A DNA stretch of 64,000 bases from Rhizobiaceae bacterium. Lineage in GTDB: Bacteria > Pseudomonadota > Alphaproteobacteria > Rhizobiales > Rhizobiaceae. Below are positions 4,649 through 54,693 of this stretch, in pieces. The stretch lies in the NCBI GenBank assembly GCA_027483885.1, contig JAIXTO010000245.1:1-64000 (forward strand), given 5' to 3'. The notes under the pieces were generated by a model that was not told the origin of the DNA, made no database searches, and saw nothing but the letters and a program-made list of their open reading frames with translations. Positions within the stretch are counted from its first letter, which is position 1, and each line of letters starts with the position of its first letter. Made by a program: the position numbers and the translations under genes.

Positions 4649-6406
4649 CTACCGCCCGGCTTTTACTGCGCGCGCTGCATTGCCAGACGCATGGAGCCGG
4701 TGCGTTGGGCGGTCTGGCGAGGTGGTTGTTTCGCGGTGGCGCGTGGTGGCGTCCAACTTGCTCTCGCCAAGCCGGAAGCTGGAGGTCAGCTGGAAGAGTT
4801 CGCTCGCCTCGGTTGCCAGCGCATGGCTGGCGGCGTTGGATTCTTCCACCATGGCCGCATTCTGCTGTGTTCCCCTGTCGATCGTATTGACCGCCTGGTT
4901 GATCTCCTGCAGCCCGATCGACTGTTCGCGCGAGGCTTCGACGATGGCCGCAACATTGGTGGAGATATCGCGCACGCGCGCAACGATCTCCTCCAGCGCC
5001 ACGCCCGTTTCCGCCACCAGTTCGACGCCCTTTTTCACCTGATCGGCAGAGGCGTTGATCAAGCCTTTGATTTCCTTGGCAGCTTTCGCCGAACGCTGGG
5101 CAAGTTCGCGGACTTCCTGAGCAACGACGGCAAAACCCTTGCCCGCTTCACCGGCGCGCGCGGCTTCAACGCCGGCGTTCAGCGCCAGAAGGTTCGTCTG
5201 GAAGGCGATCTCGTCGATGACGCCGATGATCGAGGAAATCTCGCCGGAGGACGCCTCGATCTCGCCCATGGCTGCAATGGCCTGGCGCACCACAAGGCCG
5301 GATTTTTCAGCCCCGCTGCGGGTTGTCTCCACAAGGCTTCCCGCCTCCTGCGCGCGCTGGCTGGCATCCGCAACGGTGCGGGTAATGTGCTCGAGCGCTG
5401 AAGCGGTCTCTTCCACGGATGCCGCCTGCTGTTCCGTGCGCTGCGCCAGCATGTCGGCGGCCGTTTGAACCTCGGTTGCATCTGCAGCAATGGCCGTCGC
5501 ATTGCGCGAAACGTTGACAAGCGCATCGCGCAGGCGGGCCGACGCCTCGTTATAGTCGGCGCGCAGCGGTTCGAGCGACGCCATGAACGGCTGCCGGATC
5601 TCGCCGGAAAGGTCGCCAGACGCCATATCCTTCAACCGCGACCCGAGCGCTGCCACGTTGTTCACCCGCTCGGTCACGTCGTTGGCGAACTTCACCACCT
5701 TGAACACCTGCCCGTTCATGTCGATGATGGGATTGTAGGAGGCCTGGATGTACACCGCCTTGCCGCCGCGCCCCAACCGCATGAACTCGCCGCCGACGAA
5801 TTCGCCGCTTTTCATGTCCTGCCACAGTTTGCGATATTCATTCGTCTGAACGAATTGCGGATCGCAGAACATGGCATGATGGCGCCCGAGAATGTCCTCC
5901 AGCCTGTACCCCATGGCGGAGAGGAAATTCTCGTTGGCCGCCAGGATATGGCCATCCGGCGAGAACTCGATGATCGCCTGGGCGCGCGAAAGCGCTGCGA
6001 GCTTTCCAGCATTTTCAGCCGCTGCCAGCTTGATCGCGGTAATATCGGTTGCAAATTTCACGACCTTGTAGACACGGCCGTTCTTCATGATCGGGTTATA
6101 GGAGGCCTCGATCCAGATCTCGCGTCCGCCCTTTGCGATGCGCTTGTACTGGCGTCGGTCGAAACGGCCGGCCGCAAGCCCTGCCCAGAACTGGCGATAT
6201 TCGTCGCTCTCGGCCTCCCCAGGTGCCACGAACAGGCTGTGATGGCGGCCGAGAATTTCGTCCTCCCGGTAACCAAGCGCAGTGCAGAAATTTTCGTTGG
6301 CAGCCAGAATCTTGCCGACGGGGTCAAATTCGATCACGGCAAACGAACGGCGCATGGCGTCAAGAACACGGTCAGCATCGGACGAAAACACACGGGGCAG
6401 CGACAT
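4649..6406 (-). CDS. Soluble methyl-accepting chemotaxis protein with two PAS domains
   Basis: This chemoreceptor of 585 residues lacks transmembrane segments. It has two tandem PAS domains (about 10-125 and 130-245), each with the GRHH and NPI-containing motifs seen in Aer-like receptors. A short linker follows, then the long coiled-coil signalling domain whose hairpin tip is EIAFQTNLLALNAGVEAARAG. No C-terminal CheR-binding pentapeptide is present. I chose the ATG at 6404-6406 because GGAG lies six bases upstream; a TTG 33 bases earlier is less likely. Cytoplasmic PAS receptors of this kind usually read redox or metabolic state through flavin or haem, but the ligand cannot be told here. The gene stands alone between the phytochrome operon and the LuxR-type gene. 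Confidence 0.9.
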   Translation of the reverse strand: MSLPRVFSSDADRVLDAMRRSFAVIEFDPVGKILAANENFCTALGYREDEILGRHHSLFVAPGEAESDEYRQFWAGLAAGRFDRRQYKRIAKGGREIWIEASYNPIMKNGRVYKVVKFATDITAIKLAAAENAGKLAALSRAQAIIEFSPDGHILAANENFLSAMGYRLEDILGRHHAMFCDPQFVQTNEYRKLWQDMKSGEFVGGEFMRLGRGGKAVYIQASYNPIIDMNGQVFKVVKFANDVTERVNNVAALGSRLKDMASGDLSGEIRQPFMASLEPLRADYNEASARLRDALVNVSRNATAIAADATEVQTAADMLAQRTEQQAASVEETASALEHITRTVADASQRAQEAGSLVETTRSGAEKSGLVVRQAIAAMGEIEASSGEISSIIGVIDEIAFQTNLLALNAGVEAARAGEAGKGFAVVAQEVRELAQRSAKAAKEIKGLINASADQVKKGVELVAETGVALEEIVARVRDISTNVAAIVEASREQSIGLQEINQAVNTIDRGTQQNAAMVEESNAASHALATEASELFQLTSSFRLGESKLDATTRHRETTTSPDRPTHRLHASGNAARAVKAGR

Positions 6407-6697: not shown

Positions 6698-7492
6698 TTA
6701 CTCGATCAACCGACGCCTGATCCCCTCGGCAATCGCCTGCGTGCGGTTGGTGGCGCCGATCTTGCGGGTGGCGTGCTTGATGTAGGTGTTGACGGTGTCC
6801 ACCTGGTAGCCGCTTTCGGATGCGATCTGGTCGCTGGTCATGCCTTTGGACGCAAGCCGAAGACAGATCAGTTCACCTGCCGAAAGTTTCAGCTCGACAG
6901 CGGCAAAACGTTCCACCAGCGGACGGGTGATTTCCCGATGGGTTGCCTCTGCAATGGCGGCAAAGAAGCTGATTTCCTCCGCCAGAAACGGCGTCGTTCG
7001 GGTAAAGCCGACACATCCATAGATCAGCGTGCCGCGGCGGATGGGAAACAGCGTGCGGTTTTTGACATTAAACGTGTCGAGCAGATAGGAAAGCCGCTCC
7101 GGCAGGACGACATCCTTCAGCACCTCGCCTTCGATCACGACACCCTCGGAAATGCTCGACAGTTTCACGAAGGGATCGGTCAGGTGGTATCGCCCCTCGT
7201 AATAGGCTTCCAGAAAGGCCGGCGGAAAATCCGTGTCGATGGATTGGGCCGTGCCAAAGCGGAACTTGTCGAGGTCGAGGCCACTCACCATCACGAAATC
7301 GAAAGGCACTGCCAAACGCAACCGCTCGATGAACGGATGGTTGTGAATGAAACGATGGCGCGGCACGGAAGCAAGATCGACATACTGGTCGAGATGGTCG
7401 GGGCGTCGGAACATGGGGCTGGTCAGCATGGGGCCATCGGGGCTTTCTTCGACTGTCTGGAGCAAGACATGACCACAGGAGAAGCGGCACAT
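6698..7492 (-). CDS. LuxR-family regulator with autoinducer-binding-type N-terminal domain
   Basis: A C-terminal LuxR/FixJ helix-turn-helix (about 200-262; LSAGELICLRLASKGMTSDQ, then VDTVNTYIKHATRKIG and the terminal ATNRTQAIAEGIRR) marks this as a DNA-binding regulator. The N-terminal two thirds resembles the acyl-homoserine-lactone-binding fold in length and pattern, with conserved W/Y positions only partly kept. No luxI-type synthase is in the window, so it would be a LuxR solo or bind another ligand. The start is uncertain: ATG at 7492 gives 264 residues, while an internal ATG at 7429 gives 243, closer to the family norm. It is divergent from the globin-coupled receptor. Confidence 0.8.
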   Translation of the reverse strand: MCRFSCGHVLLQTVEESPDGPMLTSPMFRRPDHLDQYVDLASVPRHRFIHNHPFIERLRLAVPFDFVMVSGLDLDKFRFGTAQSIDTDFPPAFLEAYYEGRYHLTDPFVKLSSISEGVVIEGEVLKDVVLPERLSYLLDTFNVKNRTLFPIRRGTLIYGCVGFTRTTPFLAEEISFFAAIAEATHREITRPLVERFAAVELKLSAGELICLRLASKGMTSDQIASESGYQVDTVNTYIKHATRKIGATNRTQAIAEGIRRRLIE

Positions 7493-7677
7493 CGCGAGAT
7501 TTATGATTCGTCATTGTGACACATGCACAGATTTGAGGGGAGGCACGATCGACAGAAATCCCCGATGCGCCAGATCTGCGTTCATCACAAAGCATTACAC
7601 AACGCTAAGTCGGCATTAAGCATTGATCGCTAAAATTCGCCTATGCTGGTGATCCAGCCCCGTCTCTGGAGAAATCG

Positions 7678-9186
7678 ATGTCGACGAACGCAAAAACTCA
7701 GCATCTGAAGGACAGACTCGATTTCATGGGCCTCGACGAAGGCCAGCGCCGCACCCTGTCCTCCATGCGCCCGCTGGTTGCGCGTTCGATCGGACCGGCA
7801 CTTGATGCGTTCTATAATAAGGCCAGGAAACACCCCCATACCGCCGCCTTCTTCGACAATCCAGCCCATATCGCCCATGCAAAAGCCCGGCAGGAAAAGC
7901 ACTGGGATGCCATCGCATCCGCCGAGTTCAATGAACACTACGTTGATGCGGTATCGACCGTCGGGCGCACCCATGCCCGTCTCGGGCTGGAGCCGCGCTG
8001 GTATATCGGCGGTTATGCGCTCATCGTCGAAGGCATCATCAAGGCGGTGATCGCCTCCGAGCTGAAAGGCTTCTTCGTGGAGAAGAAGGCAAAGGCCGTG
8101 GAGGAGCAGCTCTGCGTCGTGGTAAAAGCTGCCCTTCTCGACATGGATTATGCCATCTCCGTCTATCTCGATGTACTCGCCAGCGAGCGGGCACAGGTGG
8201 AATCGGAAAAGGCAAAGGCGACGCAGGAGCAGCAGACGGCGCTCGACGCGCTTGATACCGCCCTTCGCGAGCTTGCCGCCCGCGACCTGACGGCCGAGGT
8301 GCGCCAGACGCTTTCGCCGGAATTTGAAAAGATCAGGACAAACTACAATCGTTCGGTGTCGGAGCTTGATGGCGCCATGCGCGAGATCCGCGATGCCGTC
8401 GAACAGGTGCGCGCCGAAGTGAGCGGCATTTCGTCCTCCACCGACGACATGGCCAAACGCACCGAGCAGCAGGCCTCTGCGCTGGAACAGACGGCCGCAG
8501 CGCTTGAAGAAATCACCACCATTTCCACCAGTTCGGCGCAGCGCACCAACGAGGTGCAGGCCATCGTCAAGGTGTCGGCTGCCGAAACCGTGCGCTCCGG
8601 CGAAGTGGTGCAGCAGGCCATCAGCGCCATGGGCGAGATCGAAACGTCGTCCCGCAAGATGACGCAGATCATCGGCGTCATCGACGATATCGCCTTCCAG
8701 ACCAATCTTCTGGCGCTGAATGCCGGTGTGGAAGCGGCCCGCGCCGGCGAACAAGGCAAGGGCTTTGCCGTCGTTGCCCAGGAGGTGCGCGAGCTGGCCC
8801 AGCGATCGGCGGCAGCTGCCCGCGAGATCAAGGCGCTGATCGACCAGTCTTCCAACGACGTCACCCGCGGCGTCAGCCTTGTCAACAAGACCGGTGAGGC
8901 GCTGGTCAGTATCGGCGACGGCGTTAATGCCATCAGCGGGCATATCGACCTGATTGCCCGCTCGGCCAAGGAGCAGGCGTCGGGCATCGATGAAATCAAC
9001 GCGGCGATACGCAGCATGGACCAGATTACCCAGCGCAACGCCGCGCTGATGGAAGAAACCAACGCCTCCACGCAAAATCTCGTCGGCATTTCCTCCGGCC
9101 TCTTCGAACTGCTGTCGCGTTTTCGCACCAGCGGTTCGACGCAGCAGCACCGGGATCAGGATCAGCGTCCGCGCAAGCGGGCCTGA
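7678..9186 (+). CDS. Globin-coupled methyl-accepting chemotaxis protein (HemAT-type aerotaxis sensor)
   Basis: The first 170 residues form a protoglobin sensor domain. H99 in GRTHARLGLEPRWYIGGY matches the proximal haem histidine region of HemAT-type sensors. The rest is a receptor signalling domain with the hairpin tip DIAFQTNLLALNAGVEAARAG and long methylation helices. There is no transmembrane segment, so the protein senses oxygen or another haem ligand in the cytoplasm and signals to CheA. The length is 502 residues, and GGAG six bases upstream supports the ATG. The C-terminal tail is basic and lacks a CheR-binding pentapeptide. A strong hairpin follows the stop. It is divergent from the LuxR-type gene. 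Confidence 0.93.
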   Translation: MSTNAKTQHLKDRLDFMGLDEGQRRTLSSMRPLVARSIGPALDAFYNKARKHPHTAAFFDNPAHIAHAKARQEKHWDAIASAEFNEHYVDAVSTVGRTHARLGLEPRWYIGGYALIVEGIIKAVIASELKGFFVEKKAKAVEEQLCVVVKAALLDMDYAISVYLDVLASERAQVESEKAKATQEQQTALDALDTALRELAARDLTAEVRQTLSPEFEKIRTNYNRSVSELDGAMREIRDAVEQVRAEVSGISSSTDDMAKRTEQQASALEQTAAALEEITTISTSSAQRTNEVQAIVKVSAAETVRSGEVVQQAISAMGEIETSSRKMTQIIGVIDDIAFQTNLLALNAGVEAARAGEQGKGFAVVAQEVRELAQRSAAAAREIKALIDQSSNDVTRGVSLVNKTGEALVSIGDGVNAISGHIDLIARSAKEQASGIDEINAAIRSMDQITQRNAALMEETNASTQNLVGISSGLFELLSRFRTSGSTQQHRDQDQRPRKRA

Positions 9187-12130: not shown

Positions 12131-13399
12131 TCACCAGCCCCAGGACGAATGGATCAGTGCCTCGACTTCGCCATTGACGGCGTTCATGGCTTCCAGCGCG
12201 CGGTCATAGGTGGCGCGGGTAAAGTTTTCGCGGCCGACTTCGTAGAGCGTCTGCTTGGTAAGCCCGGCATCCGAGACGGCGGTCGATTTCACCATCGGCG
12301 AGGTCAAGACCCGGTCGCCGAACAGCGAGCGCATAAAACCGACGATCTGCGCCTGCGGCCCGTCATTCGGCTCGAAGCGGGTGACGAGATAACGCAGGAA
12401 ATCGAAGTTCAACGTGCCGCCGGCTTCGCGAACGACAGACAGAAGATCCGAGGTCATGAACAGGAACTGGTTCATCGAGGCGACATCGAGCATCTGCGGA
12501 TGCACGGTGACGAGAACCGACGAGGAGGCGCAGAGCGCCGACAGCGTGAGGTAACCCAGCTGCGGCGGGCAATCGATCACGACAACGTCGTAATCGTCTT
12601 CCACCGTCTTCAGCGCCGTCTGGATACGGGCGAAAAACACCGGACCGTTGTCCTCGCCGCTCTGGCGACGTAACAGCGCCTGCGGCGTCTCGTGCTCGAA
12701 TTCCTGCAGTTCGATATTGCCGGGCACCAGATCCAGCCCCGGAAAATAGCTTTGCCGGATGACTTCCGACAGCGGCCGGACATCGCCATCGTAACGGATG
12801 GCGCCATAAAGCGTGTCATTGCCGGTGAGATCCAGTTCCGGCTGATAACCGAAGAGTGCCGAAAGCGACGCCTGCGGATCGAGATCGATGGCGAGAACCC
12901 GGTGGCCGGAGAGCGCCAGATACTGCGCCAGATGCACGGCAGACGTCGTCTTGCCCGAGCCGCCCTTGAAATTGGTCACCGAAATGACCTGCAGATGCTC
13001 GCCACGCTCGGCGTCGCGCTTGGGAAGATAACTGCGGGCCTTGGCGTGATTGCCCTTGGAAACGGCCTGTTCCGACAGATAGAGCCTGAGCGCATTGATA
13101 TCGGATAGCGAATAGAAGCGGCGCCCGCCGGCACCGGTTTCCGGCTGCGGCCCCTCGCCGGCCAGCGACAGCTGGCGCAGATATCCATCAGAGACCCCGA
13201 TCAGCTTTGCAGCTTCGCCGGAGGAAAAGGCGCGCAGCGTCTTGGAGGCAGCCGGCGGAAACAGCCGCTCGCGCATGGCCTTCAACTGCTCCGACAGTGC
13301 CTGCGCATCGGCGGCAATGGTGACGTCAGCCGGCTGGCGCGTGTCTTGCGCACCGCCTGCCGTCTTGGTTTTTGCCGTTCCGCGCGCCGTGGGCACCAT
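12131..13399 (-). CDS. repA: Plasmid partitioning ATPase RepA (ParA family)
   Basis: This 422-residue Walker-type ATPase drives partition and represses the repABC promoter together with RepB. The N-terminal part carries a MerR-like winged-helix segment (AKLIGVSDGYLRQLSLAGEG and GRRFYSLSDINALR). The ParA core starts with VISVTNFKGGSGKTT, and the later motifs LAIDLDPQAS and VVIDCPPQLG are intact. I chose the ATG at 13399, which has GGAG nine bases upstream, over a TTG 18 bases earlier. It is the first gene of the operon, so the promoter should lie within 13400-13600. Confidence 0.95.
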   Translation of the reverse strand: MVPTARGTAKTKTAGGAQDTRQPADVTIAADAQALSEQLKAMRERLFPPAASKTLRAFSSGEAAKLIGVSDGYLRQLSLAGEGPQPETGAGGRRFYSLSDINALRLYLSEQAVSKGNHAKARSYLPKRDAERGEHLQVISVTNFKGGSGKTTSAVHLAQYLALSGHRVLAIDLDPQASLSALFGYQPELDLTGNDTLYGAIRYDGDVRPLSEVIRQSYFPGLDLVPGNIELQEFEHETPQALLRRQSGEDNGPVFFARIQTALKTVEDDYDVVVIDCPPQLGYLTLSALCASSSVLVTVHPQMLDVASMNQFLFMTSDLLSVVREAGGTLNFDFLRYLVTRFEPNDGPQAQIVGFMRSLFGDRVLTSPMVKSTAVSDAGLTKQTLYEVGRENFTRATYDRALEAMNAVNGEVEALIHSSWGW

Positions 13400-48413: not shown

Positions 48414-49541
48414 TCAGGCCGCGTTCGAGCGTGCCCGTGTGGCGGCCGTCGAGGTGATGATCTTGCCCGTCTTCGGATCAAACACCATCATGTTGCGCGC
48501 CACAAATTCCAGCCACACCTTGGCGCTCGGCCAGCTTTCGACAAAGCGCGGAATGAGAGCCGTGATCGGCGTGCCGTTGGCAGACAGCGAAAGGATCGTC
48601 TGCGACCCGGTCGGCTGAACGACGTCAACCTCTGCGGCCAGCCGGTTGTCCAGGGCTGTTTCGTGAAGGTTGAAATGTTCCGGCCGGATGGCGCAAGTCA
48701 CCGGACCCGCTTCGCGGGCGATTGCCTGCTCGAGCATGACTTCGACACCGTGAAGCTTCAGCACGCTTCTGCCATTTCTCTGTTCGAGCATGCCGTCAAA
48801 GACATTGATGCGGGGATCGCCGATAAACTCGGCCACGAACAGATTGGCGGGCTCATGGTAGATTTCGTAAGGGCTGCCGATCTGCTGGATGACGCCGTCC
48901 TTCATCACCACGATGATATCGGACATTGTCAGCGCCTCGACCTGGTCATGCGTCACATAAACAGTGGTGGCGCCAAGATCCCGCGACAGGCGCTTCAACT
49001 CGGTTCGCATTTCCGTTCTTAAAACCGCATCAAGGTTGGACAGCGGCTCGTCCATCAGCAGGATGGAATTGCGCGCAGCAATCAATCTCGCAACGGCCAC
49101 ACGCTGTTGCTGGCCGCCTGACTGTTCCGATGGGAAACGCGAGCCATACTGTTCCAGCTGCACCTTCTTCAGCGCCTCGGCCAGCCGTGCGTCAATCTCG
49201 TCCTTCGGACGTTTTGCCTGATGCAGCGCCAGCGTGATGTTCTTGTCGACCTTCATGTTCGGCCAGAGCGCATAACTCTGGAAGATAAAGCCGAGACCCC
49301 GCTTTTCCGGCGGCACGAAGCTGCCGTCGCGTCCGGAATAAACCGTTTTTCCCGCAAGCGTCAGTTCGCCGCCGGAGGGCTGTTCGAGCCCCGCAATGAC
49401 GCGCAGCGTCGTCGTCTTGCCGCAACCGGATGGCCCGAGCAGCGTGACGAATTTCCCCTTCGGGATTTCCAGATCGAGCGGCGGAATGGCAAGATGCGCG
49501 CCGTAATATTTGGTGATGCCTTTCAAGGACACTTCGTTCAT
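48414..49541 (-). CDS. ABC ATPase of an Afu/Fbp-type importer
   Basis: This 375-residue ATPase is of the iron/sugar-phosphate/spermidine importer class. Walker A is GPSGCGKTT, signature SGGQQQRVAVARLIA, Walker B ILLMDEPLSNLD, and switch histidine VYVTHDQVEAL. A C-terminal TOBE domain follows (about 285-370). The ATG at 49541 has a long GGGGGGAGG site upstream. It follows the binding-protein gene after a strong hairpin. It pairs with the fused permease encoded earlier in the operon. Confidence 0.92.
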   Translation of the reverse strand: MNEVSLKGITKYYGAHLAIPPLDLEIPKGKFVTLLGPSGCGKTTTLRVIAGLEQPSGGELTLAGKTVYSGRDGSFVPPEKRGLGFIFQSYALWPNMKVDKNITLALHQAKRPKDEIDARLAEALKKVQLEQYGSRFPSEQSGGQQQRVAVARLIAARNSILLMDEPLSNLDAVLRTEMRTELKRLSRDLGATTVYVTHDQVEALTMSDIIVVMKDGVIQQIGSPYEIYHEPANLFVAEFIGDPRINVFDGMLEQRNGRSVLKLHGVEVMLEQAIAREAGPVTCAIRPEHFNLHETALDNRLAAEVDVVQPTGSQTILSLSANGTPITALIPRFVESWPSAKVWLEFVARNMMVFDPKTGKIITSTAATRARSNAA

Positions 49542-49564
49542 CGGGTTTCCTCCCCCCAAGGTTT

Positions 49565-49602: not shown

Positions 49603-50829
49603 TCAGTTGCTGGTCTCGACCACCCAGAAATCGTTCACTTCAGCCACATGGTCGCGCTGGTATTCGGCAGATCCAAACATCTTGCGCACCTTCGGCCAGT
49701 TTTCGCCGCCCTTCGGCAGCGGCACATCCGTGCGTGGCGAAAACGTGCCGACCTTGAAATAGGCGGCCATGCCCTGCAGCTTCTTCAGGCTTTCGCCGTC
49801 GCGGTAAGGCTTTTCAAGCTTGGTATCGGCGGTCAGATCCTTCGACCCCATCTGGAAAGCGATGAACAGCTTGGCTGCATTGGGATGCGTCGATTGGCCG
49901 GCAATCGCCACATAGGTCGAATAGGCAAACACCCCGGCCGGATCGATGTCGTAGAGCACGGCATTGGCATAATCGTCGCTGCCGTTCTTGTTGATGTAAT
50001 GCATGCTGGAGAAGGTGATGGGCGGCTTTGCCTGTCCTTTGAGACCGGAGGCCGTCGCGAGCTTGGAACCGGAATCGTAGATGACGAGATCGTTCTTCAA
50101 GAGCCGATGCAGGAATTCATAACCGGCGTTTTCCATGCCGTCGGACAGGACGAGCGGCTTTCCGGCATATTTTTCATAGGATTTGGCAAAATCATCGGCG
50201 TGTTCGACGATGGAGGTCAAAAGCGCAAGCGAGGTCAGCGAGCCGAGAGGGCTTTTCATGGCAAAGCGCTTGTTCCATGCCGGTTCGGTCAGCTGCCAGA
50301 CATTGGTGACCGGCGGCGCATCCTTGTAGGTGTCGGAATTGTACATGAGCACGGTGGCTTCGATCACCTGCGTCAGCAGCGGTTCGCGCAGTTCGACCGG
50401 GATCTTCGCCTCCAGGTAACGCGGCACATAATTGACGATGCGGTGATTGGGCAGGAGATCGTAGAACATCTGGGCGGTGCCGGCGGTGTTGACCACATCC
50501 ACGGCAAAGATACCTGCCTGCTGTTCGCGCACCACCTTCTCGATCGTCTTTTCCGAGCCGAGATCATAGGCGTTGACCTTGATCTCCGGGTAAAGCTTCA
50601 TGAAGTCCTCGGCCAGCGCATTGACGGTCGAGGAGGAGGAATAGACGGTCACCTCGCCTTCGGCCTTGGCCTTCTTGACGATCTCCTCCCAGTTCTCGTC
50701 CTTGGGCTGGTTGGCGCCAAGTTCTGCCGTCTTCAGCCAGGCATCAAATGCGGCATCCTGTGCGCAGGCCGCCGTGCCGATGAGGCATGCGAATGTGGCG
50801 ATAGCCACCCGTTTCGTGAGCATTCCCAT
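49603..50829 (-). CDS. Periplasmic binding protein of an Afu/Fbp-type ABC importer
   Basis: This 408-residue periplasmic protein has a signal peptide (MLTKRVAIATFACLIGTAAC, cleavage near CAQDA). The mature part has the family pattern VTVYSSSSTVNALAEDFMKL of the iron / sugar-phosphate binding proteins. AfuA of Actinobacillus, once thought an iron protein, binds hexose phosphates, so a phosphorylated ligand is plausible. The three phosphatase genes in the operon support this. No Tyr-Tyr iron site of FbpA could be confirmed by eye. GGGAGG lies upstream of the ATG. Confidence 0.88.
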   Translation of the reverse strand: MGMLTKRVAIATFACLIGTAACAQDAAFDAWLKTAELGANQPKDENWEEIVKKAKAEGEVTVYSSSSTVNALAEDFMKLYPEIKVNAYDLGSEKTIEKVVREQQAGIFAVDVVNTAGTAQMFYDLLPNHRIVNYVPRYLEAKIPVELREPLLTQVIEATVLMYNSDTYKDAPPVTNVWQLTEPAWNKRFAMKSPLGSLTSLALLTSIVEHADDFAKSYEKYAGKPLVLSDGMENAGYEFLHRLLKNDLVIYDSGSKLATASGLKGQAKPPITFSSMHYINKNGSDDYANAVLYDIDPAGVFAYSTYVAIAGQSTHPNAAKLFIAFQMGSKDLTADTKLEKPYRDGESLKKLQGMAAYFKVGTFSPRTDVPLPKGGENWPKVRKMFGSAEYQRDHVAEVNDFWVVETSN

Positions 50830-50863
50830 GTGATCTCTTCCTCCCTGTTGCAAGGTCGCCTCC

Positions 50864-52681
50864 TCAAGCAAACCCCATCTTCGTATTGCGGAAAACCAGC
50901 CGGAACAGGATGTTGCAGCCCACGACCAATGCTACGAGCAGCAGGGTTGCCGCTCCGATCAGCTGGGGAACATCATCCGTCTGATAGGTGTAGATCACGC
51001 TTGCCAGCACAGCCGTCGACGGCGTGACCAGCAGGATGATCAGCGAAAGCTCGCGCATCGTGCCGATGAAGCTCAGCAGCATGCCCGATACCAGTCCCGA
51101 GGCGGCAAGAGGTGCCACGATGTGGCGCACACGGCTGACCCAGCCGATACCTTGTACGCGGGCCGATTCTTCGAGGGACTTGTCGATCTGCAGCATCGCG
51201 GCAATGCCGGTGCGCGATGTATAGGGCAGGTTCTTCACCGCCGCGATCAGCACCAGCAGGGCAAATGTCCCGTAAAGTGCCGGGATCGGCCCGACCGGTC
51301 GCGAGAACATGCCGATATAGATGGCGCCAAACGCCACGGCCGGAAAGATGTAAGGCAGGAAGGCTGCCAGCTCCAGCGCCCGCGAGGACAGGCTTCCGCG
51401 TGTCTTCACCACCACGTAACCGATGAGAAAACCGAGAATGCCGGTGGCAATGGCGGTAAAGAAGGCCAGCCTGAGACTGTTCCAGGCCGCATGCAGGATC
51501 TGCGGGTTCTGGAAAACGCCGGCATAGATCGCATTGACGCCACCGCGTGCGCCAATCCAGTAATGCAGGGTCAGATTGGAAAGGTCATAGTTGCCGGCAG
51601 TGCGCGACAGCGATTGCAGCACGAGCAATCCCAGCGGCAGAACCACGGTCACGCACATCAGCACAACGACGAAGGTGAACACCAGCCATTTGGCGCGGCC
51701 GAGATCGATTTCGCGCCGGCGAAATCCCTTGCCGGACATGGTGACGAAGCTCTTGCGCACACCGATCATGCGCTGGTTGATCCAGATGAACAGAACAGCC
51801 ATCAACACCAGCACAAGCGCCAGCAGATAACCATCGCCCACATTGCGCGACCCGATGGCGGCATAGATCTGGGTCGGCAGCACGAAATAACGGATGGGCA
51901 TGCCGAGCACGGCGGGCGTTCCAAACGAGCCGATCACGCGGATGAAGGTCATGACAACGGCCGAGCCGACGGCTGGAAGAACAAGCGGCGCGGTGATCGA
52001 GACGAACTGGCGCAGCCGCGACATGCCGGCAATGGCGCCTGCCTCTTCGAGCTGGCTGTCGACCGTGGCAAGCGAGCCGGAAATGATCAGGAAGCCGTAG
52101 ACGTAATAATGCAGCGACAGGCAGATGATGATGGGTATTCCGCCAAAGGCGATCCAATCGGGCGGCTGGACGCCAAAGAGATAGGCAAAAACGCCGGACG
52201 CTCCGCCTACCCGGTCATTCTTGAAAAAGGTCACCCAGGCCAGCGCCATCACCCAGGATGGCAGCATATAGGGCATGACCACCGCCGTGTTGACGAACTC
52301 GCGATAGGGCACGTTGGTGCGCACGACGATCCAGGCAAGCAGGGCGCCCAGCGCCAGGCAGATGATCGTTGCCCCAAATGCCGTGACCAGCGAATTCATG
52401 AACGGCTTGTAGAACAGCGCCCAGGAAAGCCGGCTGCCAAAGACGCGCTCATAGTGGAACAGCGTCAGCTCTCCCGGCTGGCGCCCGGGCAGATAGGCGG
52501 AATCATACGGCTGGACGGTGATCGTTTCCCGCACCAGCTGAAACAGCGGGACGATGACGAGGAGCCCCAGCAGGATGGCAAGGCCAAGCGCTATCAGCCG
52601 CTCCGGCGCCGAGACGAAATGCGCCACACGGCGCATCCAGCGCTGGCCATCGCGGCTGGCTGTTTCTGAAAATAGGGTCAC
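50864..52681 (-). CDS. Fused two-domain ABC permease (FbpB/AfuB type)
   Basis: This 605-residue inner-membrane protein is made of two BinD-type permease halves, about 1-330 and 340-605, as in FbpB, AfuB and ThiP. Each half has a docking loop: SQLEEAGAIAGMSRLRQFVS and SLEESARVQGIGWVSRVRHI. About 12 helices are seen. The start is a GTG with GGAGGAG seven bases upstream; an in-frame ATG 57 bases earlier has no such site. It lies between the inositol-monophosphatase-type gene and the binding-protein gene. Confidence 0.92.
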   Translation of the reverse strand: MTLFSETASRDGQRWMRRVAHFVSAPERLIALGLAILLGLLVIVPLFQLVRETITVQPYDSAYLPGRQPGELTLFHYERVFGSRLSWALFYKPFMNSLVTAFGATIICLALGALLAWIVVRTNVPYREFVNTAVVMPYMLPSWVMALAWVTFFKNDRVGGASGVFAYLFGVQPPDWIAFGGIPIIICLSLHYYVYGFLIISGSLATVDSQLEEAGAIAGMSRLRQFVSITAPLVLPAVGSAVVMTFIRVIGSFGTPAVLGMPIRYFVLPTQIYAAIGSRNVGDGYLLALVLVLMAVLFIWINQRMIGVRKSFVTMSGKGFRRREIDLGRAKWLVFTFVVVLMCVTVVLPLGLLVLQSLSRTAGNYDLSNLTLHYWIGARGGVNAIYAGVFQNPQILHAAWNSLRLAFFTAIATGILGFLIGYVVVKTRGSLSSRALELAAFLPYIFPAVAFGAIYIGMFSRPVGPIPALYGTFALLVLIAAVKNLPYTSRTGIAAMLQIDKSLEESARVQGIGWVSRVRHIVAPLAASGLVSGMLLSFIGTMRELSLIILLVTPSTAVLASVIYTYQTDDVPQLIGAATLLLVALVVGCNILFRLVFRNTKMGFA

Positions 52682-52755
52682 TCTGTTTCTCCTCCCAGAC
52701 GGCGCTCCAAGCCGTTTACTCCGCAGATCGCGTGTCAAACGCGACCCCCTCCCCT

Positions 52756-53595
52756 TCAGGCTGCGTGGTTCCTCTCGCGCCTGCCTTGCGGTTCAGCCAG
52801 CACGATGCCGACCGCGTCGCTGACGCCATCGGCGATCGCCGGCGCGCTGGCAAGAACTGCCCCGCCGGTCTGCAACGATCCGATTTCGAAGAACGGACAA
52901 ACCCGGCCGCCCGCTTCCGCCACCAGCAACAGGCCCGGCACGCAATCCCAGGAATTCATGTGCAGCTCGACATAGGCATCCGAGCGGCCGTCCGCGACAT
53001 AGGCCAGCGCCATGGCACCGGAGCCCGCCCGCCGCACATTGGCGCCCTTGTCCAGAAGCCGTGTCATGGCATCAAGATATCGGGTGTTGGGGATGCGGGT
53101 CGACCAGCCCAGTTCGACCGATGCGATGTCAAAACGGTCGGTACGGGCCGCCGAGATCGGCTGACCGTTGCGGGTTGCCCCTTCGCCGGCACGGGAAAAA
53201 TACAGCTCGTCCAGCGCCGGATTGTAGATCGCCGCAAGCTTTGCAACATTGCCTTCCACATAACCGATGGAAATGCAGAAATGGGGGATGCCGCGGGCAA
53301 AATTGGCAGTGCCGTCAATCGGATCGACCACCCAGACCCGCTCGCGGATGTCTCCGCCACCTTCTTCGCCAAAGAAGCTGTCTTCAGGGAAGGCTGCCGC
53401 AATACGCTGACGGATATGCGCTTCTGACGCCGCGTCGGTTTCCGTCAGATAATCCTGCGGACCTTTCATCGAAAAGTCAGCCGCCTTGCCGTTCTGAAAG
53501 CCTTCAAGGACCAGGGCTCCGGCAGAGAGAATGACATCCCGGCACAGCTGCGCGCGGCCATCCAGATCGTTTGCATAGGTCATTGCTGAAGGCAT
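52756..53595 (-). CDS. Inositol-monophosphatase-family phosphatase
   Basis: This 279-residue Mg-dependent phosphatase has the metal motifs FFGEEGGGD, WVVDPIDGTANFARG and SWDCVPGLLLVAEAGG, all intact. The family hydrolyses inositol monophosphates, sugar phosphates, histidinol phosphate and PAP. The ATG at 53595 has GGGAGAGG seven bases upstream. It is the first gene of the operon, 17 bases after a perfect 32-bp palindrome that probably is the LacI operator. As first gene with the importer behind it, it is the main candidate for removal of phosphate from the imported compound. Confidence 0.92.
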   Translation of the reverse strand: MPSAMTYANDLDGRAQLCRDVILSAGALVLEGFQNGKAADFSMKGPQDYLTETDAASEAHIRQRIAAAFPEDSFFGEEGGGDIRERVWVVDPIDGTANFARGIPHFCISIGYVEGNVAKLAAIYNPALDELYFSRAGEGATRNGQPISAARTDRFDIASVELGWSTRIPNTRYLDAMTRLLDKGANVRRAGSGAMALAYVADGRSDAYVELHMNSWDCVPGLLLVAEAGGRVCPFFEIGSLQTGGAVLASAPAIADGVSDAVGIVLAEPQGRRERNHAA

Positions 53596-53611
53596 GCGTA
53601 TTCCTCTCCCT

Positions 53612-53643
53612 TGAACACGTGTGCAATATTGCACACGTGTTCA
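53612..53643. promoter_or_regulatory. Perfect 32-bp palindrome, probable LacI-family operator
   Basis: TGAACACGTGTGCAAT followed by its exact reverse complement. It contains two copies of ACACGTGT and a central TGCAATATTGCA. It lies 17 bases upstream of the first structural gene and 60 bases after the LacI-gene stop. LacI-family repressors bind symmetric sites of 14-20 bases, so this site could take one dimer at the centre or two on the outer repeats. Confidence 0.8.
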
Positions 53644-53703
53644 CTCGGTGCAAGCGCGTATCTGGCACCGGTTTGAAAAACTCTGGTCAAGACGTGGATG
53701 TCG

Positions 53704-54693
53704 TCAGCGCCGGACGGTGTTGCGCTCGATCAGTGTCACGGGAACATTGGTGATGACGGACTGACCAAGCTCATGATCGAGCGCTGCCAGCACGGCCTCT
53801 GTGAGGACTTCGAACGACTGCGCGATGGTCGTCAGTTCGTAGCTTCTCCAGGAGGCCTGTGGAATATCGTCAAAACCGATGACGGACAGGTCTTCGGGCA
53901 CGAGGCGCCCCATGTCATTGCGGGCGCCATCGAGAAAGCCGAGCGCCATGATATCGGTGACGCAGAATGCACCGTCGATCTGTCGGTCGCAGAGAAGCTC
54001 GCGAGCCGCCTTCAGGCCGGTCTCATAGGTCGTCGGGCCATCGCGCCAGACGACGATCTCCGTGCCGGCGGCGGTCATGACGCTGGAAAATGCCTCGCAC
54101 CGGCGCAACTGGGTCGGCGTCTCGGATCCACTTGTGACGACGGCGACTTTTTGACATCCCGCCGTCTTCAGGCGCTCGGCGGCAAGCGTTGCGCCGGCAA
54201 TGTCATCGCTGAGGATGATATCGGTATCGGACCTTGCAAGCTGCCGGTTGATCACGATGAGCTTGACGCCGTTGGCAAGGCATTCGTCGACGATCGACAT
54301 CGGCGGCTCGCCGGAGAGAACGACAATGGCGCGCGCCCGAAACTCGAAAATCAGTTCGATCAGCGGCGCAATATCGCTGCGCGCATCCGCAGCATTCAAC
54401 AGCAGGCATTGCTGGCCGCGCCGCAGCAACCCGATGCTGAGCATGTCCAGCTGTTTTGCCATGAAGGGCAAAGACAGGTTTGCCCCGACGACGCCCACCA
54501 GATTGGAGGAGGAATTGTTGAGCCCCTGGGCAAGCCTGTTGACGCGGTATCCCAGTTCCTGGGCGGCTTGCAGCACTTTTCGGCGCACATCGGGCGAGAC
54601 GCTGGCGCCTTCCGTAAATGTCCGGGAGACGGCAGAGCGCGAAACGCCTGCTCTTTGAGCGACGTCGACGGACGTGACAAAGGCCTTGGCCAT
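53704..54693 (-). CDS. LacI-family transcriptional repressor
   Basis: This 329-residue protein has the LacI helix-turn-helix at the N-terminus (VTSVDVAQRAGVSRSAVSRT, then the hinge helix RVNRLAQGL). A periplasmic-binding-protein-like ligand domain with LVGVVGANLS and the C-terminal VIGFDDIPQASW follows. I start at the ATG of MAKAFVTS; a TTG 15 bases earlier is less likely. It lies upstream of, and on the same strand as, the importer-phosphatase operon, with the 32-bp palindrome between. The ligand is probably the imported compound or its dephosphorylated product. Confidence 0.92.
   Translation of the reverse strand: MAKAFVTSVDVAQRAGVSRSAVSRTFTEGASVSPDVRRKVLQAAQELGYRVNRLAQGLNNSSSNLVGVVGANLSLPFMAKQLDMLSIGLLRRGQQCLLLNAADARSDIAPLIELIFEFRARAIVVLSGEPPMSIVDECLANGVKLIVINRQLARSDTDIILSDDIAGATLAAERLKTAGCQKVAVVTSGSETPTQLRRCEAFSSVMTAAGTEIVVWRDGPTTYETGLKAARELLCDRQIDGAFCVTDIMALGFLDGARNDMGRLVPEDLSVIGFDDIPQASWRSYELTTIAQSFEVLTEAVLAALDHELGQSVITNVPVTLIERNTVRR

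Follow-up and report, generated by a model that had tools for sequence, protein, structure and literature searches.

The window, by which we mean the whole 64,000-nt stretch of Rhizobiaceae DNA that was analysed, carries on its minus strand a lacI-family repressor gene (53704..54693; 329 aa, with PF00356 and Peripla_BP_3 domains) and, after it, an inositol monophosphatase family gene (52756..53595; PF00459, E 3e-56), the first in the operon presumed to be controlled. On the same strand there follow genes for an ABC transporter permease with two BPD_transp_1 stretches (50864..52738), a solute-binding protein (49603..50871) and an ABC transporter ATPase (48414..49559). The ABC parts at the locus are akin to 2-aminoethylphosphonate and other transporters. 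The LacI-family group of the window fell short of the cut-off in all 17 of the NCBIfam models given for it. Between the stop of the repressor gene (53704) and the start of the phosphatase gene (53595, judged from its Shine-Dalgarno sequence and from orthologues) lies a gap of 108 bp. The dyad studied here occupies positions 53612-53643 of this gap, so that the repressor gene is directly upstream of it, and a Shine-Dalgarno-like sequence, AGGGAGAGG (53603..53611, minus strand), comes immediately past its downstream end.

The dyad, TGAACACGTGTGCAATATTGCACACGTGTTCA, is identical to its own reverse complement over all 32 bp, exactly as a sequence-only reading of the window had claimed. From base composition, with bases taken as independent, 3.4e-5 perfect dyads of this length are expected per window and 0.003 per 5.5 Mb. 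It is the longest perfect dyad of the window, the runner-up being of 16 bp. The dyad is real and not a product of chance. The nested elements described in that reading, two ACACGTGT blocks and a central TGCAATATTGCA, are both present, and its remark that no other copy was noticed holds well beyond the window: in the genome assembly (5.5 Mb, 252 contigs, 96% complete) the exact 14-mer TGNACACGTGTNCA is found only at its two places in the dyad. With up to two mismatches allowed, 60 sites were found in the genome against 41 for the reversed control, a modest excess. Three further sites carry a single mismatch (L113-L115) but, because all of them lie inside open frames of more than 120 codons, they are not obvious operators.

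Read along the minus strand, the dyad is made up of O1 (TGAACACGTGTGCA, 53630..53643), the four bases ATAT, and O2 (TGCACACGTGTTCA, 53612..53625), which is the reverse complement of O1, with 18 bp from centre to centre. Each has the form of a 14-bp LacI-type operator, TGMACACGTGTKCA, being palindromic at six of seven symmetric pairs and having CG at its centre, and the 14-mer of O1 is the same in orthologues. Even palindromes with a central CG are recorded for 1173 of the 1303 LacI-family regulators surveyed by Ravcheev et al. 2014 (PMC4052901). The 32-bp dyad taken as a whole is centred on TA, without CG, and does not have this form. Its mirror symmetry arises because two near-palindromes stand in opposite orientation around a self-complementary A/T gap. 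Where the 14-mer occurs alone elsewhere, it is preceded by T in 12 of 15 cases and followed by A in 10 of 15. Since these flanking bases are frequent and the next ones are not conserved, the operator unit was put at 14-16 bp, and a unit of 18 bp was dropped.

Homologues of the window's lacI gene were fetched with their loci, at identities of 96-32%. The exact 14-mer is present somewhere in 35 of the 80 loci and no more than 350 nt from the lacI match in 31, mostly as one site per side, for example in Klebsiella, Raoultella and Pseudomonas. In Klebsiella, Raoultella, Pseudomonas and Pantoea loci TGCACACGTGTGCA stands alone ahead of the phosphatase gene. The 14-mer is not common to all homologues, since no exact copy is found up to 350 nt from lacI in 49 of the 80 loci, the Vibrio group included; an adjacent LacI-family gene is conserved with the site in the window's clade, not across all homologues. 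Of the 20 rows of that clade (support 99/99), 19 have a pair ahead of the phosphatase gene. These are tandem pairs, with a pitch of 18 bp in 16 and of 17 bp in three; the remaining row, L041, has a single exact site, at the place of O2. The phosphatase genes were located by tblastn, a motif search having missed several loci, and their identity was checked with Pfam for the window and for L039-L043 and L144, and with tblastn for the other rows. In the Ensifer-type loci L042-L045 the pair and the phosphatase gene are found some 5 kb away from lacI, and since the pair still precedes the phosphatase gene it goes with the operon promoter. The same four loci (about 12250-12345 and 5726-5814) have, besides the pair, two weaker sites 69 bp apart upstream of lacI, lying between lacI and divergent genes, which Pfam identifies in L041 as an ABC transporter cluster.

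The frequency of the pair was also assessed in a scan of 247 genomes of the family, in which pitches of 14-42 bp were allowed. This matched nine genomes, against one for the reversed control. Seven of the nine have a lacI of at least 67% identity, and all seven show a pitch of 17 or 18 bp. The others, G208 (pitch 34) and G164 (pitch 30), were taken as chance matches: their genomes have no lacI match at E 1e-60, and the control also gives one match. Altogether nine genomes of the family sample have a lacI of at least 67% identity, and in the remaining two (G216 and G154) the pairs, spaced at 18 bp, are degenerate. A stricter pair pattern, run over 397 genomes of the order, retrieved only the window and one 33-bp pair (G358), a result that says little because just 21 of these genomes come from the window's own family.

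Beyond the clade, Microvirga has one site after lacI, at the place of O1, preceded by TTGCAA with its TTG 10 nt upstream, and a further site upstream of lacI that is exact in L046 and has one mismatch in L047. Perhaps the ancestor of the Rhizobiaceae/Aurantimonadaceae clade gained O2, or else O2 was lost elsewhere; the tree, in which the position of the long-branched L008 is unsure, is compatible with both. Other arrangements of the same operator are also seen. Pairs 30-33 bp apart occur in other lineages (L049, 5908/5940; L056, 5909/5939; L126, 1498/1531), near the published 32-bp peak discussed below, with one mismatched site in each of L049 and L056. Pararhizobium polonicum (L040) has an extra exact 14-mer upstream of lacI (5913-5926), which suggests autoregulation of lacI in that species; no such copy was found near lacI in the window within two mismatches. 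In the Bosea-type homologues L052 and L053 a different repeated motif, TTGCAAYCGCGTACAT, follows lacI and is perhaps their own operator. Nothing was concluded from the heptapeptide SRSAVSR of the recognition region: it is present in 34 of 48 rows, while 13 differ, including L063, L064 and L076 with exact sites, and the 48th row, L008, is in a wrong reading frame.

Eighteen promoters of the clade, related to one another and not independent cases, were compared, leaving out L038 (the same promoter as L037), G237 (as L035), G094 (as L036) and the single-site L041. All 18 have a TTG whose T lies 10 nt upstream of O1, while the next best of the offsets from -55 to -3 reaches 2 of 18. The TTG is kept despite divergence around it, identity between rows over the 60 nt upstream being 18-67% and mostly 20-50%. 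With the TTG fixed at this distance, O1 therefore seems to fill the spacer between -35 and -10. In the window the predicted -35 hexamer, on the minus strand like the rest, is TTGCAC (53648..53653; three of six matches to TTGACA), 17 nt from a predicted -10 hexamer, AATATT (53625..53630; four of six matches to TATAAT), which is formed by the 4-bp gap together with the adjoining base of O1 and of O2; a strict consensus scan returned no sigma-70-like site. The A at position 2 and the T at position 6 of the -10 hexamer are kept in all 15 rows of pitch 18 with a spacer of 17, and in all three of pitch 17 with a spacer of 16, these spacers having been chosen post hoc. The AATATT junction is likely to be the -10 box of the phosphatase-operon promoter, and the pitch of 17-18 bp looks to follow from the promoter rather than from helical phase.

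Very probably, then, the dyad is a pair of LacI-family operators of 14-16 bp each, set side by side 18 bp apart around one promoter of the phosphatase and ABC transporter genes, with binding predicted from sequence. O1 would occupy the 17-nt spacer between the TTG-type -35 and the -10, both operators would contribute a base to the -10 hexamer formed at the gap, and O2 would lie over the predicted start site. When effector is absent, one repressor dimer would sit at each site, RNA polymerase would be barred and the phosphatase/ABC transporter operon would be repressed; binding of the effector would release both dimers. Our guess at the effector is a phosphorylated polyol, sugar or glycerophosphodiester, because of the phosphatase gene here and the GDPD-family gene after lacI in L051. 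In that betaproteobacterial locus the GDPD-family phosphodiesterase gene (7017-7751) lies directly 3' of the lacI homologue, which hints at a glycerophosphodiester-related substrate.

How two dimers might share so short a stretch can be proposed more tentatively. The pitch of 17-18 bp amounts to about 1.7 helical turns and falls off the helical repeat, so that cooperative contact of a helically phased kind is doubtful. With doubt slightly outweighing belief, we suggest that the two dimers would face different sides of the helix, rotated by about 100 degrees from each other, and would clasp the -10 box from either side; the promoter would dictate their pitch, and repression would be tight with no need of looping or tetramers. 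Alternatively, the sites could hinder each other sterically and take one dimer at a time, with the second copy doing no more than make occupancy of the promoter likelier. The pitch is indeed shorter than the 21-22 bp reported for pairs considered cooperative (PMC4052901), but the 14-mers have no bases in common and pairs about 13 bp apart, which may be functional, are reported in the same source, and we consider single occupancy unlikely.

The sequence-only reading had taken the palindrome itself for the LacI operator, possibly holding two dimers or a tetramer. A single composite operator, in which a LacI tetramer or two dimers read the long symmetry, is very improbable. Symmetry is perfect over 32 bp in four of the 18 promoters (the window, L034, L035 and L040), even extending to 38 bp in L035 and L040, and reaches 15 of 16 pairs in three more (L033, L142 and L143); O2 mirrors O1 in seven of the 18, spread over two separate parts of the clade. 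The other 11, however, have just 10-13 pairs, yet keep both 14-mers, and in L036-L038 the second site is turned round, giving the direct repeat TGAACACGTGTGCA-ACAT-TGAACACGTGTGCA. Perfect symmetry is missing from 14 of the 18, in three of them by a single pair, which comes close to the outcome that the earlier reading had set against itself, a palindrome not conserved where the operon is. What persists among the relatives is the two 14-mers, the perfect dyad recurring in 4 of 18 only, and the occurrence of lone sites in other lineages and a dyad centre without CG likewise tell against a composite operator. On this comparison the conserved thing is the putative operator pair, not perfect mirror symmetry.

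The protein points the same way. The C-terminal tail of E. coli LacI is its tetramerization helix. When the window's LacI (a query of 328 residues, the first Met left off) is aligned with full-length E. coli LacI (360 aa, 1lbg), residues 5-326 match residues 4-329, and the helix has no counterpart. Because the alignment stops at LacI residue 329 of 360, a LacI-like tetramer is unlikely. Of the two arrangements put forward earlier, two dimers would fit the two complete 14-bp operators and the tetramer looks unlikely; the region keeps its place as a candidate LacI-family operator region, while the reading of the 32-bp dyad as such as the operator is not supported. We give very little credence to a cruciform, also raised in that reading, or to an RNA hairpin or terminator between lacI and the phosphatase gene: the dyad is perfect and its RNA fold has an energy of -22.8 kcal/mol (-26.3 in L142 and L143), but no terminator-like site was found, the energy drops to -11.8 in L036/L037 and -11.5 in L144, a cruciform would carry three mismatches in 16 pairs in the direct-repeat orthologues, and the pair is still found at loci whose lacI lies about 5 kb off.

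The window's element is most likely a tandem operator pair, a case of ordinary repressor control with an unusual pitch. It illustrates how two ordinary repressor sites, set around a -10 box, can produce an eye-catching long palindrome. A clear operator motif is now given for a LacI-family group that falls below all 17 listed NCBIfam cut-offs. The naturally occurring mirrored, direct-repeat, 17-bp and 18-bp pairs make it easy to test whether helical phasing is needed by repressor dimers that bind close together.

In the literature searched, which took in few subscription papers, TGCACACGTGTGCA was found in no paper and nothing on tandem or close-set LacI-type operators evidently dealt with the window's arrangement. 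As regards the transported substrate, AfuABC is described in PMC4546632 as a hexose-phosphate ABC transporter formerly thought to be an iron carrier; the window has an ABC system beside a phosphatase, and the likeness, drawn by description, is a lead only. Closer comparisons come from the survey by Ravcheev et al. 2014 (PMC4052901), according to which about 20% of the operons regulated by LacI-family proteins are preceded by two or more sites, with inter-site distances, taken here as centre to centre, peaking at 13, 22 and 32 bp. Even palindromes, a central CG and multiple sites are common to those tandem operators and the window, but the pitch here is 17-18 bp against the published peaks. At the gntKU operators of E. 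coli GntR two LacI-family sites are likewise close together at one promoter; they are about 13 bp apart and overlap, whereas those of the window are 18 bp apart and their 14-bp cores do not overlap (PMC4052901). RafR and ScrR, as described in that source, resemble the window's clade in having double sites throughout an orthologous group, although their sites, 21-22 bp or two helical turns apart, are taken as cooperative, in contrast to the roughly 1.7 turns that separate the pair described here.
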